DNA from: Candidatus Buchananbacteria bacterium RIFCSPHIGHO2_02_FULL_39_17
Lineage (GTDB): Bacteria > Patescibacteriota > Patescibacteriia > Buchananbacterales > UBA6539
Direction: 5' to 3'
DNA length: 37,060 nucleotides
Assembly (NCBI GenBank): GCA_001817425.1
Contig: MHII01000024.1
Location: forward strand, 48,272-85,331
In this document: positions 7,229 to 36,239 of the stretch, in pieces
How the letters are laid out: each line of letters opens with the position of its first letter
Numbering within the stretch: position 1 is the first letter of the stretch
Program-made: the position numbers and the translations under genes
The notes under the pieces: generated by a model
Seen by the model: the letters and a program-made list of their open reading frames with translations, nothing else
Databases searched by the model: none
What the model was told of the DNA's origin: nothing

Positions 7229-8341
7229 ATGATTCCTTACGGCCACCAAACTATTGATCAAAAAGATATTAATTCAGTTTTGGCGGTTTTGCAATCTGAC
7301 TGGCTAACGCAAGGCCCAAAAGTTTTAGAATTTGAAAAAGCTTTAGCGAAATATTGCGGCGCCAAATATGCTGTTTCCGCTTGTAATGGCACGGCGGCGC
7401 TGCATTTAGCTTATTTAGCTGCGGGCTTAAAAAAAGGCGATGAAGTAATTACCACGCCCAACACCTTTGCGGCAACAACTAATATGCTTTTAGCCGTTGG
7501 CGCCAAGCCAGTTTTTACTGAAATTCGGCTTGACAGTTATAATTTGGATGAAAATCAGATTGAAAAATTAATTAATAAAAAAATTAAAGCGATTGTGCCG
7601 GTTCATTTTGCCGGCCAGCCGGCTGATTTGGCAAAAATAAAAAAGATTGCCAAAAAACATCGGTTGCTAGTGATTGAAGACGCTTGTCATGCCTTAGGCG
7701 CGAAATATCATGGCAATAAAATTGGCGATTGCCGATATTCTGATTTAGCGGTTTTCAGTTTTCATCCGGTAAAAACCATTACCACCGGCGAAGGCGGGGT
7801 GATTTTGACCAATAATAAAAAATTTTATGACCAATTAATTTTATTGCGCAATCATGGGATTTATAAAGATAAAAACGGAAAAAATGTAATGGTTGAACTT
7901 GGCTATAATTATCGGTTAAATGATTTGGCCTGCGCCCTAGGTATTTCGCAATTGAAAAAAATTAAACCAATTATTAGCAAAAAAAGACAAATTGCTCAGT
8001 GGTATAACGAAGAGCTTAAAAATGTTAAAGAGGTTATTTTACCAAAAGAATTAAAGGGCAATTATTCAAGCTGGCATCTTTATATTGTCAGAGTTGATAA
8101 AAAATATCGTGATTTGTTGGCAAAATATTTGAAACAAAAAGACATTGGCGTTAATTTTCATTATCCGGCAGTTTATTCGTATCCTTATTATCAAAAATTA
8201 GGTTTTGGCAAAAATAATTTAAAAAATTCTAAAATTTACCATCAGACGACTCTGACCTTGCCCTTGCCGCCGCAATTAATGAAAAGTCAAGTTAAATATA
8301 TTAGTAATCAAATAAAATTTTTTTTTGGCTATGAAGTATAA
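7229..8341 (+). CDS. pseC: DegT/DnrJ/EryC1 aminotransferase, PseC-like
   Basis: The protein has 370 residues and contains the whole PseC-like series of motifs: SDWLTQGPKVLEFEKAL near residues 28-44, CNGTAALHLA, VPVHFAGQPADL, IEDACHALGA, and FSFHPVKTITTGEGG with the PLP-binding lysine K182. PseC uses PLP and glutamate to aminate C4 of the PseB product, giving UDP-4-amino-4,6-dideoxy-N-acetyl-altrosamine. The similarity to PseC is closer than to generic DegT sugar aminotransferases, judging by memory of the family. Together with the PseB-like gene at 4991 and the GNAT at 10692, it makes a pseudaminic-acid route the best guess. Confidence 0.85.
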   Translation: MIPYGHQTIDQKDINSVLAVLQSDWLTQGPKVLEFEKALAKYCGAKYAVSACNGTAALHLAYLAAGLKKGDEVITTPNTFAATTNMLLAVGAKPVFTEIRLDSYNLDENQIEKLINKKIKAIVPVHFAGQPADLAKIKKIAKKHRLLVIEDACHALGAKYHGNKIGDCRYSDLAVFSFHPVKTITTGEGGVILTNNKKFYDQLILLRNHGIYKDKNGKNVMVELGYNYRLNDLACALGISQLKKIKPIISKKRQIAQWYNEELKNVKEVILPKELKGNYSSWHLYIVRVDKKYRDLLAKYLKQKDIGVNFHYPAVYSYPYYQKLGFGKNNLKNSKIYHQTTLTLPLPPQLMKSQVKYISNQIKFFFGYEV

Positions 8342-17499: not shown

Positions 17500-18555
17500 A
17501 TGATAATTAAAATCGGCAAAAAAATTATTGGCAAAAATTATCCGGTTTTTATCGTGGCCGAATTAGGCATTAATCATAACGGCCGTGTTGCTTTGGCTAA
17601 AAAAATGATGTTGGCGGCAAAAAAAGCCGGCGCTGATGCTTGCAAACTTCAGTCGTTTGTCACCAAAGATTTTGTCGGCGATCAGAAATTAAAATACACT
17701 TATATCAGTCAAGGCAAAAAAATCACGGAAAGCCAGTATCAGATGTTTAAACGTTATGAATTATCCCAAAAAATTCAAAAAGAATTATTTAATTATGCTA
17801 AGAAAATCGGAATCATTTTATTTTCCACGCCACAAGATAATGATTTTAAAATGGTTGATTTCCTTTGTTCGAAAACCATTAACATGCCGTCGATTAAGGT
17901 TGGATCTGATGATTTAACCAACTTAGCCATGCTTACTTATTACGCCAAAAAGAAAAAGCCGTTGATTATTTCCACCGGCATGGCGGATTTAGGTGAAATT
18001 AAAGATGCAGTTGAAGCGATTCAAAAGTATAATAAAAAATTGGCGATTTTAAAATGCACTTCGCTTTATCCGACCCCAGCCAGAGAAGCGAATTTAAATC
18101 AAATTTTAACTTTAAAGAAAATGTTTCCGCAGTTGATTATTGGTTATTCGGACCATACCATTGGCAGTCTGGCGGCAGTGATGGCTACAGCTTTAGGCGC
18201 CAAAATGATTGAAAAGCATTTTACTTTAAATAAAAATCTGCCGGGACCAGATCATCGGTTTTCGGCTGATCCCAAAGAACTTTCTGACTTAGTTAAAAAT
18301 GTCAGAGCCGCGGAACTAATGCTGGGTAAAAAGGAATTTATTTTATCAGCCGAGGAATTAAAAATGAAAAAAATCGCCCGGCGCAGTGTTATTGCCGACA
18401 GGGATATTAAAAAAGGCCAGAAAATCAAAACTTCCGATTTAGTGGTTAAGCGGCCGGGGACAGGTTTGCCGCCAAAATATTTATCAAAAATTGTTGGTAA
18501 AATTGCTAAACGAAATATTGAATCCGGTAAAATTATTAATTTAAAAGATTTTTAA
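17500..18555 (+). CDS. Nonulosonic acid synthase (NeuB/PseI/LegI family) with SAF domain
   Basis: The protein has 351 residues. The TIM-barrel part shows FIVAELGINHNG, DACKLQSF, ISTGMADLGEI, CTSLYPTP, IGYSDHT and EKHFTLNKNLPGPDHRFSADP, and the C-terminal 60 residues (RRSVIADRDIKKGQKI, then VKRPGTGLPP) are the SAF (antifreeze-like) domain. The enzyme condenses PEP with a 6-carbon amino sugar to give a 9-carbon nonulosonic acid. Choice between sialic, pseudaminic and legionaminic acid cannot be made from motifs alone; the PseB-like and PseC-like genes favour pseudaminic acid. A second, different synthase is at 36299. Confidence 0.9.
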   Translation: MIIKIGKKIIGKNYPVFIVAELGINHNGRVALAKKMMLAAKKAGADACKLQSFVTKDFVGDQKLKYTYISQGKKITESQYQMFKRYELSQKIQKELFNYAKKIGIILFSTPQDNDFKMVDFLCSKTINMPSIKVGSDDLTNLAMLTYYAKKKKPLIISTGMADLGEIKDAVEAIQKYNKKLAILKCTSLYPTPAREANLNQILTLKKMFPQLIIGYSDHTIGSLAAVMATALGAKMIEKHFTLNKNLPGPDHRFSADPKELSDLVKNVRAAELMLGKKEFILSAEELKMKKIARRSVIADRDIKKGQKIKTSDLVVKRPGTGLPPKYLSKIVGKIAKRNIESGKIINLKDF

Positions 18556-18559
18556 CAAT

Positions 18560-19006
18560 ATGGAACAAAAAAATGAAATATCCGAATTAATTAAAATGCC
18601 AAAAAACCAATTTCATCCTTTGGTTTATATCGGCGGTGAGCCAGAAATTGGAAAAAATGTTTACATTGGTCTTTTATCGGAAGTAAACGCTAAGGGGGCA
18701 AAAGTTAAAATCGGCGATAATTGCGATATTGCTTCTTTTGTCAGCATTAATGTGGCGGATTCGCATAAAAAAACACTTGGCTTGGCTAAAGATATTGAAC
18801 GAAAAGACATTACTTTGGAAAACGATGTTTTTGTCGGCTCGCACTGTTTTATTGGCGGCGGCGTTTATCTTGGCCATCACAGTGTCGTTGCCGCTGGAAC
18901 GATTTTAACTAAGTCTTGCCAAATTCCACCTTATTCATTGGTTGTTGGTAATCCAGCGGTGATTAAAGAAGGCTATTACCAAGATAAAATTGATAAATAT
19001 AAATAA
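18560..19006 (+). CDS. Hexapeptide-repeat acetyltransferase
   Basis: This short protein of 148 residues is made largely of hexapeptide turns (IGGEPEIGKNVYIG, VKIGDNCDIASFVSI, ITLENDVFVGSHCFIGGGVY, HHSVVAAGTILTKS), ending with the family's closing PPYSLVVGNPAVIKEG. It is of the left-handed beta-helix type that acetylates hydroxyl or amino groups of sugars with acetyl-CoA, like NeuD/PglD/WbbJ relatives. It lies 4 bases after the NeuB-like gene, so decorating the nonulosonic acid or its precursor is plausible. The sugar is unknown. Confidence 0.8.
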   Translation: MEQKNEISELIKMPKNQFHPLVYIGGEPEIGKNVYIGLLSEVNAKGAKVKIGDNCDIASFVSINVADSHKKTLGLAKDIERKDITLENDVFVGSHCFIGGGVYLGHHSVVAAGTILTKSCQIPPYSLVVGNPAVIKEGYYQDKIDKYK

Positions 19007-19013
19007 AAAATAT

Positions 19014-19620
19014 ATGGCTAAATTAAAGAAATTTCATAAGTTGAGATACGTTTATAGCGACGTTGTCTCATTAGTTAATACTTATTGTAAAAAGGGGAAA
19101 GTATTAGAGATCGGTTGTGGCACAGGAAACAATTTAGTATTTTTTGCTGAAAATGGTTGGGACACTTACGGTATTGATATTAATAAAAAAGCAATTGGCT
19201 ATGCCCATAAACTGCTTAAAAGTAAAAATCTTAAAGCCAAGATTACAATAGGTAATGTTGAAGAATTACCTTATAAAAACAGAGAGTTTGATTTAGTGTT
19301 AGATAGGGCCTGTCTACAACATAATAGGATTAATTCAATAAAAAAAATTATTAAAGAAGTAGAAAGGGTTTTAGTTAGGGGGGGGGGTATTCATAATTGT
19401 GAATTTTAGATCTATAAAAGATTTCTCGGCCAAGAATTTTAAGAAAGATAGAACATTTAAAATATATGATTATGTCCATTACACTACCGCAAAAGAACTA
19501 AAATCACTATTAGCAAAGTTTAAGATAATCTATATGGAGCATTTAAAAACCGAAGTATTAATTCCTAAAAAATTTAATAAAGGAACATATATTTTAGTAG
19601 CTAAAAAATTATTATCATGA
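19014..19620 (+). pseudogene. SAM methyltransferase interrupted by a 10-G tract (probably phase-variable, OFF)
   Basis: The ATG at 19014 opens a class I methyltransferase: VLEIGCGTGNNL (motif I), YGIDINKKAI and LPYKNREFDLVLDRACLQH. It runs into ten Gs (19378-19387) and stops at 19407-19409. The remaining part of the protein continues in the next frame to the stop at 19618-19620: with nine Gs the frame would read VLVRGGVFIIVNFRSIKDF and on to KKLLS, about 201 residues. The gene is thus either a phase-variable gene caught in the off state or a homopolymer sequencing error. Arginine codons are all AGA or AGG and GTA is common, unlike its neighbours, which suggests recent acquisition. It ends as ATGA with the next gene. 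Confidence 0.8.
19378..19387 (+). repeat. Poly-G tract of 10 within a methyltransferase gene
   Basis: Ten consecutive Gs occur in an AT-rich region, exactly where two methyltransferase halves lie in different frames. Removing one G joins them. Such tracts are the classical basis of slipped-strand phase variation, for example in Campylobacter surface genes. Confidence 0.9.
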
Positions 19621-30498: not shown

Positions 30499-31696
30499 TA
30501 ATAATTTAAAAGTTTTGTGTTTGAGTTTTCGGACGCCGCCCCAAGTCCGGCCGCAAGCGATTTTAATTGGCAAAATGATTCCGGAATGGGTCCGGCAAGG
30601 AGTCAAGCCAATTATTATCACTTATCGCGAAAAAGAAAAATGGCAAATTGATTTGCCCATTTATAAAGTCGATAAATTTCAGCTTAATCGGTATTTGAGA
30701 AGATTGCCTTTGATTGCCAATCTGCTGGAAAAAAGATATTTTTATCGGCTTTTTAAACAAATGGAAGAAATTGTCAAAAAACACCAAATCAATCTGATTT
30801 ATTCATTTTCTAATCCTTATGCTTCCAATATCGTTGGCGCGAAATTAAAAGAAAAATTAGGCATAAAATTTATTTCTAATTTTAGTGATCCTTGGTACGA
30901 TGATCCTTATCAATCTTTTTCTAAATCTGAAAAAAAAGATATTGCTCGGAAAGAAAAAAATATTATTCAAACGAGTAATCGAATAATTTTTAACAATGAA
31001 GTAGCTAAAAATTTGGTAATGAAAAAATATCCGGTTGAGTGGCAAAAAAAAGCAATAGTCATTCCCCATTGCTTTGACAGCAAAAAATATCCGGCAAAAT
31101 TAGAAAAGAAAAAAGATTACTTTATCCTTAGCCATATCGGCGCTTTTTATCAGCAAAGAAATCCAGAGTTATTATTTTCTGCTTTAAGATCAGTTTTGGC
31201 CAAAGAGCCAAGTCTTAAGAAAAAATTAAGGTTAAGATTGGTTGGTGGTGATCTTAAATATACTAATTATCAAACAAAAGATTTATTATCAGTTATTTCT
31301 AATTTTGGTTTAGATGAAATTGCTGAAATTTTACCCGCGGTTTCTTATCAAGAAAGCTTAGAAGAGATGAAATTAGCCGATTGTTTAATCGTCATTGATG
31401 CTGATTTTAACCTTAGCCCGTTTTTCCCGTCAAAAGTTGTGGATTATGCCGGCAGCCAGACGCCGATTATTGGCATTACGCCAAATAATAGTCCAACCGC
31501 TCAATTACTCCGCGGGTTAGGTTGCCCCAGCTTTAATTATCAGCAAGAGAATAATTTGACTGGTTACTTAATAAAATTGATTAGCGGTCAAGTTGAAATA
31601 AAGATAAACCATGACTATCTGCAGAATTTTTCTGTTGAAAATACCACTAAATCGTTAATTAAAATTTTTAATGAGATTTTAACTGAAAAACTATGA
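30491..31696 (+). CDS. Glycosyltransferase family 4-like protein
   Basis: The protein has 401 residues and a GT-B layout: the N-terminal domain has LKVLCLSFRTPPQVRPQAIL and INLIYSFSNPYASNIVGAKL, while the C-terminal domain has ILSHIGAFYQQRNPELLFSAL, LRLRLVGGDL, EILPAVSYQESLEEMKLADCLIVI and PSKVVDYAGSQTPIIGI, the last in the place of the family's nucleotide-sugar binding E-x7-E stretch. It should transfer a sugar from a nucleotide donor to the growing glycan; neither donor nor acceptor is known. No membrane segment is visible. It overlaps wecB as ATGA. Confidence 0.8.
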   Translation: MTNNNLKVLCLSFRTPPQVRPQAILIGKMIPEWVRQGVKPIIITYREKEKWQIDLPIYKVDKFQLNRYLRRLPLIANLLEKRYFYRLFKQMEEIVKKHQINLIYSFSNPYASNIVGAKLKEKLGIKFISNFSDPWYDDPYQSFSKSEKKDIARKEKNIIQTSNRIIFNNEVAKNLVMKKYPVEWQKKAIVIPHCFDSKKYPAKLEKKKDYFILSHIGAFYQQRNPELLFSALRSVLAKEPSLKKKLRLRLVGGDLKYTNYQTKDLLSVISNFGLDEIAEILPAVSYQESLEEMKLADCLIVIDADFNLSPFFPSKVVDYAGSQTPIIGITPNNSPTAQLLRGLGCPSFNYQQENNLTGYLIKLISGQVEIKINHDYLQNFSVENTTKSLIKIFNEILTEKL

Positions 31697-32778
31697 GATT
31701 GGCAATTATTTTAGGCACTCGCCCAGAAATTATAAAAATGTCGCCGATTATAAGAATTTGCGAAGAAAAAAATATAGATTATTTTATTCTTCATACGGGG
31801 CAACATTACAGTTATGAAATGGATAAAAAGTTTTTTGAAGATTTAGAAATCAGCCAGCCCGCTTATAATTTAAATGTCGGCGGTCAGCCTTATCGCAAAC
31901 AGATTGGAAATATGACGCGAGAAATTATGGCGGTTTTGGAAAAAGAAAAACCAGATGTGGTTTTAGTCCAGGGTGATACGATTAGTGTTTTAGCCGGAGC
32001 TTTGGCGGCTAATAAATTAAAAATAAAAATCGGCCATCACGAAGCCGGATTGCGCAGTCATGATTTAACCATGCTTGAAGAAACCAATCGAATTATTACC
32101 GATCATATCTCGGATTATTTATTTGCTCCGACCGATGACGCTTTAAATAATTTATATGATGAGGGTATTACCAGCGATAAAGTTTTTTTAACCGGCAATA
32201 CGATTGTTGATGCCGTTTCCCAAAATTTAGCTTTAGCGGAAAAAAAAGTTGATATTTTGGAAAAATTAAATTTAAAAAAGAAAAATTATATTCTCGTGAC
32301 GGTTCATCGATCAGAAAATGTTGATAATGCAATAAGGCTCAAAGGTATTATTGAAGGGTTAAATCTTGTCAGCCGAGAATTTCAATTGCCAATTATCTTT
32401 CCGGTTCATCCTCATACCACCAATAGTTTAAATCAGTTTGGCCTTAATGCTAATTATATTCAATTAATCCAACCGTTGGGTTATTTAGAATTTATGCAGC
32501 TGGAAGCCAAAGCAAAGCTAATTATTACTGATTCCGGTGGCTTGCAGGAAGAAGCTTGTATTTTAAAAATTCCTTGCGTGACGGTTCGCGATAATACCGA
32601 GCGGCCGGAAACGATTAAGGCAAAAATTAATATTTTAGCCGGTGCGGATCCAAAGCGAATCTTGGCAGCGGCAAACGAGATGATAAAAAATAGTCGGCAG
32701 TGGGTTAATCCTTTTGGCAGCGGGGACGCAGCCCAAAAGATTTTATCGTTGATTGAAGAGCAATTAAAAAAATTATGA
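31693..32778 (+). CDS. wecB: UDP-N-acetylglucosamine 2-epimerase (non-hydrolysing), WecB-like
   Basis: The protein has 361 residues. Motifs include ILGTRPEIIKMSPII, HTGQHYSYEMD, VVLVQGDTISVLAGALAA, GHHEAGLRS, EETNRIITDHISDYLFAPT, TGNTIVDAV and TDSGGLQEEA. This is the fold of WecB/MnaA, which interconverts UDP-GlcNAc and UDP-ManNAc. The NeuC/LegG/hydrolysing branch is related, but the GHHEAGLRS and TGNTIVDAV features are closer to WecB as I recall it. ManNAc could feed a glycan unit or a sialic- or legionaminic-type synthase such as that at 36299. It overlaps both neighbours as ATGA. Confidence 0.85.
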   Translation: MRLAIILGTRPEIIKMSPIIRICEEKNIDYFILHTGQHYSYEMDKKFFEDLEISQPAYNLNVGGQPYRKQIGNMTREIMAVLEKEKPDVVLVQGDTISVLAGALAANKLKIKIGHHEAGLRSHDLTMLEETNRIITDHISDYLFAPTDDALNNLYDEGITSDKVFLTGNTIVDAVSQNLALAEKKVDILEKLNLKKKNYILVTVHRSENVDNAIRLKGIIEGLNLVSREFQLPIIFPVHPHTTNSLNQFGLNANYIQLIQPLGYLEFMQLEAKAKLIITDSGGLQEEACILKIPCVTVRDNTERPETIKAKINILAGADPKRILAAANEMIKNSRQWVNPFGSGDAAQKILSLIEEQLKKL

Positions 32779-33486: not shown

Positions 33487-34809
33487 ATGGATCTCGGAAA
33501 AAAAATTAAATATAAAATTAAGATTCCACTAGTTGATTGGCTGATGAGATTTAGCTTGAAAAATAATTTACCGATTTTAACGGCTTTATCTTTAAGTTTA
33601 GCGGCCACTAAAGCTAATCGCCATAGTCAATATACCGTGCTTTGTTTGGGCCGAAGTATTTTTACCAACGATATTGAAGCTCTGGCTCATTTCGGCAAAA
33701 AAATCAAATATTTGGTGATTAATTTGAAATATTTTGATTTTTTGCTTAATCATTTTATTTTGGCGGAAGACTTCAAAAATATTACCGAGAGTAATTACCA
33801 TAACGCCAATTTTGGCCAAGCGGGCAAACAAAATTTAAATCAGTATTTGAAAAAAGTTTTACCCTATTGGCAACGTTTTTCTGGGTTTTCTGCGGTAATG
33901 TCAGGCAATTTCGGCTATGTTCAACAGCAGGAATTAGCCAAGGTCTGCGAAGCAAAAAGAGTGCCGTTTATTGTTTTAAATAAAGAAGGCATTGCCATTC
34001 CCGGCGCTTTTGAAAAATATACCGAGCAATACAAAAATCACCATTTTTTTGGGGCAAAAATGTTATTATACAATAAGCAGATTAAAAAAGCGCTTTTAAC
34101 AACTAAAATTGCCGGTTTAACCGAAGACAAATTAAAAATTGTCGGCGTGCCGCGATTGGATTATTATTTTTTCGAAAGGACAAATAATAATTCAGCCAAC
34201 CAAAAGAAAATAACTTTTTTTTCTTTTTTCCCTCGGGATAAATTTTGGTATGCCATTGCCAATGATCAGGAATTAAATCAAATTGAAAACCGTTCAATTG
34301 AGTTTCACTATTGGGTAATGCTTTTTGCGCAAAAATATCCGGAATATCAAGTGATTATCAAAACCAAAGTGGCGGAACACTACGTTGACTATGTTTCAAA
34401 AATATTAAAAGAAAGATTTAATGAACCAATAAATAATTTAAAAATTATTAATGTTGGTAATCCGGTTGAATTAATTAAGCAGGCAAAAGTCATTTTAGGC
34501 TTTAATTCCACAACTTTATTGGAAGCGATTGCTGATGATAAGCTAATTATCACGCCTTATTTTGGCGATATTATCACCGGTCGCAACTGGGATTATTTCA
34601 GTGATTATCCCGATTTAGTCAATTATGCTAAGACTTATGAAGAGCTGGAAAATTATTTAGTTTCACCAAACAAATATTTAAACCAAGAAAACAATAAAAA
34701 CAAATTTTTGGAAAGTTATATTTTTACTCCTGATGGTAAATCTTGTCAGCGAACAGAAACAGAAATAATAAAAACTATCAGAAAGCCGGAATTTTATGAA
34801 ACGAATTAA
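33487..34809 (+). CDS. Surface-carbohydrate GT-B-like protein (CDP-glycerol/KpsS-like)
   Basis: The protein has 440 residues. Features are YTVLCLGRSIFTNDIEALAHF, VPFIVLNKEGIAIPGAFEKY, KIVGVPRLDYYF, ITFFSFFPRDKFWY, YQVIIKTKVAEHY and VELIKQAKVILGFNSTTLLEAIADDKLIITPYF. The last motif recalls the acceptor/donor region of CDP-glycerol glycerophosphotransferase and KpsC/S-like GT-B proteins. It is probably a glycosyltransferase or glycosyl-phosphotransferase; the donor is unknown. It is related in overall plan to the protein at 22052. It overlaps the next gene by 14 bases. Confidence 0.6.
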   Translation: MDLGKKIKYKIKIPLVDWLMRFSLKNNLPILTALSLSLAATKANRHSQYTVLCLGRSIFTNDIEALAHFGKKIKYLVINLKYFDFLLNHFILAEDFKNITESNYHNANFGQAGKQNLNQYLKKVLPYWQRFSGFSAVMSGNFGYVQQQELAKVCEAKRVPFIVLNKEGIAIPGAFEKYTEQYKNHHFFGAKMLLYNKQIKKALLTTKIAGLTEDKLKIVGVPRLDYYFFERTNNNSANQKKITFFSFFPRDKFWYAIANDQELNQIENRSIEFHYWVMLFAQKYPEYQVIIKTKVAEHYVDYVSKILKERFNEPINNLKIINVGNPVELIKQAKVILGFNSTTLLEAIADDKLIITPYFGDIITGRNWDYFSDYPDLVNYAKTYEELENYLVSPNKYLNQENNKNKFLESYIFTPDGKSCQRTETEIIKTIRKPEFYETN

Positions 34810-35500
34810 AATAGAAAAATTTAGGCCAGAAACTCTTGAGATTTATAATTATTTTAAGCAACAATCTGGTTCAGAACATATCGCTAAACCGACAACAATT
34901 GAAATTTTATTAGATATTTGCCGTGAACAGCAACCAAAAAAAATACTTGAGTTAGGGGGGGGGATAGGCACAATTAGTTATTTGCTTTTAAGCAATTCCA
35001 CGGCCCAAGTTGATATTTATGAAGATAATGACTTTTGTTTTAATAAGTTAGAAGAGAGAATATCTCCTTTTGGGGATGTCCGCTTCAAGGTTATTAAAAA
35101 CTATCATGAAATGCCGCCAGCTAAAGAATATGATTTGGTTATTGTTGACGGTGGCAGTGGTAAGGGACGAGGCAAAGATTTTGATGGAGGATATATGATG
35201 GCAGTAAGTGATATTCTAAAATGTATAGATCCAGTTAAAACTATTTATGTTGAAGGATATCGGCATATTCAACGATGGCTTATTTTTAAAGTGTTAAGGA
35301 AAAAATATACTTATAAACTTATTAGATACGACGAAACATCATTTCAGGGAAAGAGGTTGTCGGGTGGTTTAAAAATTGAATGTAAGTTTTCTCAATCAAA
35401 AATTTTACGATTAGTTAACTTTATTTTTTGGGCAATTGTTGAATGGTACCCCGTTAGAAATTTTATTAGTTATCGATTTAAAAAATTAATTGGCAAATAA
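34796..35500 (+). CDS. SAM-dependent methyltransferase with in-frame 9-G tract (probably phase-variable, ON)
   Basis: The protein has 234 residues. Motif I is KKILELGGGIGTISYLL at about residues 48-64, followed by VDIYEDNDFCFNKLEE and YDLVIVDGGSGKGRG. The three glycines are all encoded by GGG, giving nine consecutive Gs (34955-34963) in an AT-rich setting. A gain or loss of one G would shift the frame before residue 60 and remove the protein. The poly-G in the methyltransferase at 19014 supports a switch. The protein is predicted to modify the glycan; the acceptor is unknown. It overlaps the previous gene by 14 bases and the next starts 1 base after its stop. Confidence 0.8.
   Translation: MKRIKIEKFRPETLEIYNYFKQQSGSEHIAKPTTIEILLDICREQQPKKILELGGGIGTISYLLLSNSTAQVDIYEDNDFCFNKLEERISPFGDVRFKVIKNYHEMPPAKEYDLVIVDGGSGKGRGKDFDGGYMMAVSDILKCIDPVKTIYVEGYRHIQRWLIFKVLRKKYTYKLIRYDETSFQGKRLSGGLKIECKFSQSKILRLVNFIFWAIVEWYPVRNFISYRFKKLIGK
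34955..34963 (+). repeat. Poly-G tract of 9 inside a methyltransferase gene
   Basis: Nine consecutive Gs encode the glycine triplet of the SAM-binding loop. The frame is open here, unlike at 19378-19387, where the tract has ten Gs. Confidence 0.9.
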
Positions 35501-35501
35501 T

Positions 35502-36239
35502 ATGGGAAAAACTAAAAAGGAAATTTTAGCGGTGATACCGGCCAGAGGCGGATCAAAAGGTGTGCCGAAAAAAAATATCAAACTTTTGTGCGGCAAACCT
35601 TTAATCGTTTGGACTATTACTGAAGCGAAAAAATCAAAATATCTGACCAGAATTATTGTTTCTACAGATGACGAAGAAATTGCTGAAATTGCCAAAAGAA
35701 ACGGCGCCGAAGTGCCCTTTTTGCGCCCCTCGGAAATTTCCGGGGACTTGTCAACTGACGTTGAATTTTTGCTTCACGCCTTAAATTTTTTAAAACAAAA
35801 AGAAAATTATGAGCCCGAAATTGTTTTACGTCTACCGCCGACTTCACCATTAAGAACCGCCAAAAATATTGATGAAGGTATTATTAAACTTTTAAATACT
35901 CCAGGGGCTGATGCGGCGCGGCCGATTTTAGAAGCGCCAAAACATCCTTATAAGATGTGGAAAATTTCCGCTGATGGCCAATGGCTCAAACCTTTTTTGT
36001 CAAAAGAATTTACCGGTTTTGAGGAGCCGCATAATATCGCTCGCCAGCTTTTCCCAAAGGTTTATATTCATACCGGCGCCATGGATATTATGCGTTTAAA
36101 AACCATTCGCGAACTGAAATCAACTTCTGGCAATAAACTGACTTACTTTTTTATGAAACCGGAAGAATCAATTAACATTGATACGCCGCTAGATTTTGAA
36201 ATCGCTGAATATTTATCTAAAAAGATGGCGGCGAGTTGA
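35502..36239 (+). CDS. CMP-nonulosonate (acylneuraminate) cytidylyltransferase, NeuA/PseF/LegF-like
   Basis: Taken from the ATG at 35502 (a TTG at 35490 is in frame but unlikely), the protein has 245 residues. Motifs are ILAVIPARGGSKGVPKKN (8-25), LIVWTITEAKKSKYL, IIVSTDDEEIAEIAK, VPFLRPSEISGD, RLPPTSPLRTA, and a late FFMKPEESINIDTPLDFEIAE. This is the CMP-sugar synthetase family that activates sialic, pseudaminic or legionaminic acid with CTP. The synthase that would make its substrate lies immediately downstream. A distinct cytidylyltransferase of SpsF type is at 14851. Confidence 0.9.
   Translation: MGKTKKEILAVIPARGGSKGVPKKNIKLLCGKPLIVWTITEAKKSKYLTRIIVSTDDEEIAEIAKRNGAEVPFLRPSEISGDLSTDVEFLLHALNFLKQKENYEPEIVLRLPPTSPLRTAKNIDEGIIKLLNTPGADAARPILEAPKHPYKMWKISADGQWLKPFLSKEFTGFEEPHNIARQLFPKVYIHTGAMDIMRLKTIRELKSTSGNKLTYFFMKPEESINIDTPLDFEIAEYLSKKMAAS

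Follow-up and report, generated by a model that had tools for sequence, protein, structure and literature searches.

A poly-G tract in a glycan-island methyltransferase gene of a Candidatus Buchananbacteria genome as a candidate site of phase variation

Poly-G tracts that control surface sugars have been described in several bacteria. In Campylobacter jejuni, cj1426 encodes a phase-variable capsule methyltransferase responsible for the heptose 6-O-methyl group, switching has been measured at about 2-3 x 10^-2, and strain NCTC 11168 holds 29 poly-G/C tracts, eight of them in the capsule and LOS clusters (PMC8437040). In Neisseria meningitidis, a coding poly-G tract in lgtG controls a surface-sugar enzyme, while porA carries poly-G in its promoter (PMC3639595). 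The O-glycan cluster of Tannerella forsythia combines nonulosonate genes, glycosyltransferases, and three methyltransferases, and deletion of the methyltransferases alters the glycan (PMC6120980).

Here, we analyzed a window of 37,060 nucleotides, which is the whole stretch of DNA under study, from the draft genome of Candidatus Buchananbacteria bacterium RIFCSPHIGHO2_02_FULL_39_17. As with cj1426, a methyltransferase gene in a putative surface-polysaccharide cluster of the window contains poly-G within its coding sequence, and the genome contains several tracts; as with lgtG, the coding tract lies in a putative surface-sugar gene. The likeness to T. forsythia is one of gene content, as nonulosonic-acid genes, glycosyltransferases, and several methyltransferases are gathered in one cluster. 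In C. jejuni switching was measured and the methyl group is known, whereas both are predictions here; in comparison with N. meningitidis, the present system involves a methyltransferase and an uncultured lineage.

The G9 tract, the second tract and their island

The tract, its frame, and the effect of its length can be read directly from the window. Exactly nine Gs stand at 34955-34963 between TTA and ATA, in frame in an ATG-initiated open reading frame (ORF) of 234 amino acids (34796-35500). The codons ATA CTT GAG TTA GGG GGG GGG ATA GGC encode ILELGGGIG, with the tract supplying Gly54-56 of the SAM-binding loop, exactly as the first-pass annotation had described it. With eight Gs in place of nine the product ends after about 56 amino acids, and with ten after about 60; the repeat is thus placed as in genes whose phase variation depends on simple sequence repeats (contingency loci). 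None of the 27 tandem repeats reported for the window has a unit of 1-5 bases.

Matches of the product to Pfam and NCBIfam are weak and fall below the cut-offs. In an AlphaFold2 model (pLDDT 85.8), the motif loop comes after the strand formed by residues 49-53, and SAM methyltransferases stand at the head of the list of PDB fold matches. Because the motif I loop, the Rossmann-like fold of the model, and the fold matches agree, we place the modeled protein in the class I SAM-dependent methyltransferase superfamily, outside any named family, with SAM methyl transfer as its predicted activity.

A scan of genome contigs with the single sequence returned no relative, and a scan with a two-sequence alignment returned four. 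Altogether, six homologues were found, four of which belong to Falkowbacteria, Taylorbacteria, Harrisonbacteria, and Nealsonbacteria; among the relatives searched, the close ones lack the gene. These names, together with the phylum shared by the other homologues and the size of our genome (1.14 Mb at 96% completeness), point to Patescibacteria. The three glycines are kept in all six homologues, with codons such as GGT GGC GGT, GGC GGC GGC, and GGA GGG GGA, and in none are all three GGG. The protein therefore explains the glycines and not the G run, in agreement with the earlier proposal that an all-GGG loop is dispensable. The mixed codons of these six distant homologues rule out a tract conserved across homologues; mixed glycine codons in orthologues are an observation that the first-pass annotation had named as an argument against its reading, and the retention of a repeat among relatives that marks contingency loci was not found.

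A second methyltransferase gene of the island is interrupted by a G10 tract (Table 1). The frame break falls exactly at the tract, at the motif LVRGG, presumably the counterpart of the LxPGG loop in enzymes of this type, and with nine Gs the frame is open through to 19620. The downstream 80 amino acids alone match no Pfam family, and the identity of this piece hence depends on the reading frame. An overall look at the ORF list of the window revealed no other interrupted gene. Only three close homologues of this methyltransferase were found (36-43% identical), one of which, when its motif was read, encodes PGG as CCG GGG GGA without a long tract. The first-pass picture of two tracts in methyltransferases of one island, one off and one on, is thus upheld by a G10 that breaks its frame and a G9 that keeps it.

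Both tract genes lie in what the gene content indicates to be a nonulosonic-acid-type glycan island. A BFO_1060-like glycosyltransferase gene is also located shortly upstream at four of the homologue loci (L044, L045, L046, and L048; one gene lies in between at L045), and L044 additionally carries WbuX, NeuB-like, and PseF-like genes. The G9 methyltransferase is accordingly encoded among nonulosonate and glycosyltransferase genes both here and in relatives. Because of the island genes and these similar neighborhoods, a glycan is the likely substrate.

Table 1. Positions of the tracts, the genes that carry them, and related features (window coordinates unless a locus or contig is given)
Feature	Position	Strand	Basis or remark
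G9 tract, in frame, Gly54-56	34955..34963	+	exact sequence and translation
Predicted class I SAM-dependent methyltransferase, 234 aa, open at G9	34796..35500	+	motif ILELGGGIG, AlphaFold2 model, PDB fold matches
G10 tract, frame-breaking, in second methyltransferase	19378..19387	+	exact sequence
Second methyltransferase, Methyltransf_25 domain, stops early at G10	19014..19409	+	ORF list, Pfam; TTG start at 18990 also possible
Remainder of second methyltransferase, other frame, joined if G9	19388..19620	+	reading frame
PseC-type aminotransferase	7229..8341	+	TIGR03588, above cut-off
NeuB/PseI-type nonulosonate synthase	17500..18555	+	TIGR03569, 359 bits, below cut-off 399.65
WecB-type UDP-GlcNAc 2-epimerase	31693..32778	+	TIGR00236, above cut-off
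BFO_1060-like glycosyltransferase, just upstream, overlaps methyltransferase start	33487..34809	+	NF046086, 62 bits, below cut-off 200
CMP-sugar cytidylyltransferase-type gene, downstream of G9 methyltransferase	35490..36239	+	PF02348
Putative glycan-island Methyltransf_11 protein with in-frame G9 (LIEGGGF), relative G066	L137, 1343-2164	-	Pfam, translation
Own-genome poly-G upstream of DGR reverse transcriptase	G000:C16:7958-7966 (L032)		
Further own-genome tract preceding a reverse transcriptase gene	G000:C6:9518-9526 (L027)		reverse transcriptase frame interrupted (stops, split ORFs)

Lengths and locations of long G tracts

The draft genome comprises 1.14 Mb in 38 contigs (96% completeness). 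Among glycine codons in 240 ORFs (294 kb of the genome), GGG accounts for 11.9%, GGC for 46.9%, GGT for 28.5%, and GGA for 12.7%, so that 0.05 all-GGG triplets would be expected at the 31 Gly-Gly-Gly sites of these 294 kb. Exact genome-wide run numbers, derived from pattern counts for G6, G7, and G8, are 71 for G6, two for G7, four for G8, nine for G9, and one for G10, with none longer. In the 294 kb, A/T runs fall sharply past length 8 (161 of length 8 and 13 of length 9) and G/C runs climb again at lengths 8-9. A first-order model scaled from the examined sequence expects 2.9 G9, 0.7 G10, and 3.8 runs of at least nine, and it overestimates long runs, since it predicts 50 G7 and 205 G6 against the two and 71 observed. 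Extrapolation from the 71 G6 runs, with short G/C runs decaying roughly 0.2-fold (an about five-fold drop) per base, gives about 0.5 runs of at least nine, against 10 observed. The lengths of G runs are bimodal and the long tracts are not due to chance, in line with the first-pass view that two such tracts in one island are unlikely by chance; drift in composition would not leave a dip followed by higher counts. A simple repeat longer than chance allows, as contingency loci possess, is therefore present.

The genome contains 14 tracts of at least G8. The methyltransferases of the island account for two of them, another two immediately precede reverse transcriptase genes (C6:9518 and C16:7958), and one is in frame within a 157-amino-acid ORF of unknown function (C27:4953), while nine have no convincing gene and several of these nine lie in C-rich/G-rich palindromes. 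The first-pass annotation had named a genome free of other G tracts as an argument against switching, and 13 others of at least G8 are present. The concentration of such tracts in surface-glycan genes that it had asked about is not supported, with two of the 14 in the glycan island as compared with eight of 29 in the capsule or LOS clusters of C. jejuni; the concentration in surface-structure genes that is typical of contingency loci is not seen here.

Among 113 related genomes, 76 also carry long G tracts. A sample of 62 G9+ tracts from relatives was sorted by script into 11 upstream of reverse transcriptases, four in frame on the sense strand and two on the antisense strand, and 45 other. 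Among the sense in-frame cases are those in a Mur ligase gene and in a gene for a DUF4012 protein; these, and the tracts upstream of reverse transcriptases, show that long G tracts do not mark glycan genes exclusively. The Mur ligase tract is an in-frame G10 inside a MurD-like gene (L129, genome G080), an odd site for a switch. At another locus (L138, genome G025), what looks like a long secreted protein has an apparent signal peptide with a G10 shortly before it, and this tract is a candidate surface-protein switch.

One relative (G066), which belongs to the same class but to another family, has a methyltransferase gene with an in-frame G9 that adjoins an Epimerase_2 gene, and its other neighbor has a start that resembles, by eye, those of CMP-sugar cytidylyltransferases. 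A 43%-identical protein has IAKKHGV at the tract site, without a glycine run, and the G run in G066 is thus not imposed by conservation; the locus of this protein (genome G036) also holds a homologue of the G9 methyltransferase of our window. We regard G066 as an independent case of a tract-bearing methyltransferase in what appears to be a glycan island.

Slippage as the probable cause and its alternatives

Slippage-driven phase variation is, in our judgment, the best explanation of the G9 tract and probably the correct one, making the tract a candidate contingency site; the sequence supports this reading and falls short of proof. The tract would gain or lose a single G through replication slippage. 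At nine Gs the full 234-amino-acid enzyme would be made (on), whereas eight or ten would shift the frame in the SAM-binding loop and end the product at about 56-60 amino acids, a clean off state. The second methyltransferase would switch separately, being off at G10 and open at G9, and with two separate switches a nonulosonic-acid-type surface glycan could take as many as four methylation states. We favor slippage because G-run lengths are bimodal with all-GGG triplets hardly expected, because homologues keep the glycines with other codons, and because the second methyltransferase is broken at its own G10 with an open frame beyond. The independent in-frame G9 of G066, the glycan-island context, and the precedent of cj1426 also speak for it. 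From these observations we infer slippage in the living population and selection for switching, as well as the glycan substrate.

Three observations count against slippage, namely the six homologues without the tract, the 12 of 14 tracts of at least G8 outside glycan genes, and the in-frame G10 of the Mur ligase, an enzyme whose off state a cell would seem unlikely to tolerate. The absence of the run from homologues and the Mur ligase tract would also suit an unselected homopolymer, as would the predominance in the genome of long G tracts without a convincing gene, several of them in palindromes. Here, Gly3 would have drifted to GGG and the run would persist through mutation bias, even mutating above average, while switching would have no function and the second gene would be a recent pseudogene. 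We consider this rather unlikely, as tracts are found in two methyltransferases of one island and in one of another family, and the near absence of G7 while G9 is common is unlike simple drift. An assembly or sequencing artefact, in which tract lengths were miscounted and the G10 gene is possibly intact, is improbable; the genome is a draft in 38 contigs and homopolymers are error-prone, but the G9 gene has an intact frame in the assembled sequence and the recurrence of long G tracts in relatives indicates that the tracts themselves are real. Programmed transcriptional or translational slippage, by which a fixed DNA length would still yield some full-length protein, is very improbable, since although the G10 frame is open past the tract and partial rescue is conceivable, the precedent of transcriptional slippage in Buchnera concerns poly(A) tracts (PMC2831843).

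Short repeats upstream of DGR reverse transcriptases and the wider picture

A DGR-type reverse transcriptase was matched in 55 of 143 related genomes. Thirty reverse transcriptase loci (L149-L178) were fetched from related genomes by similarity, 28 of them with upstream sequence, and 17 of these 28 have G8-G14 no more than 170 bases ahead of the conserved N-terminal motif of the reverse transcriptase (or ahead of the beginning of the open frame at loci where the motif was not found). Further DGR loci have G7, G6, (GA)n, or (TTGA)6 at the equivalent position. At loci with a placeable start, which scripts assigned in part of the cases, the distance from the end of the repeat to the start codon is mostly 11-31 bases. 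The repeat is often directly followed by an apparent -10-like hexamer (TAGAAT, TATTAT, or TATAAT), and the arrangement resembles that of porA in N. meningitidis.

Template/variable repeat (TR/VR) pairs that differ mostly at template adenines were found several hundred bases from the tract at L183, L184, and L186-L189, as well as at the C16 locus of our genome, where an ORF that looks Avd-like by eye lies on the opposite strand between the tract and the pair. These are apparently typical DGRs, and given this distance the short repeat lies outside the template repeat. We also considered whether the methyltransferase tracts are themselves DGR variable repeats and rejected this, as their flanks have no such match in the own-genome sequence examined and the TR/VR pairs found elsewhere sit away from tracts. 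The short repeat before DGR reverse transcriptases is a candidate for a switch that makes the retroelement phase-variable. Titles and abstracts on DGRs and phase variation describe no such switch, nor do the keyword passages of a DGR review, and this lead is perhaps more novel than the methyltransferase tract.

Phase variation in Patescibacteria is not reported in the titles and abstracts retrieved or in passages of one Gracilibacteria paper, and the one paper that matched, judged by title and abstract, concerns archaeal DNA methylation. It is possible, though we advance it tentatively, that a class-wide poly-G program combines independent switches on methyl marks of a nonulosonic-acid surface glycan with short-repeat switches that precede DGR reverse transcriptases, so that variation of the glycan would be coupled to on/off control of targeted hypermutation in host-dependent Patescibacteria. 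If the proposed switching of the methyltransferase tracts is real, ultra-small and supposedly host-dependent bacteria would vary their surface sugars by slippage switches of the Campylobacter and Neisseria type.
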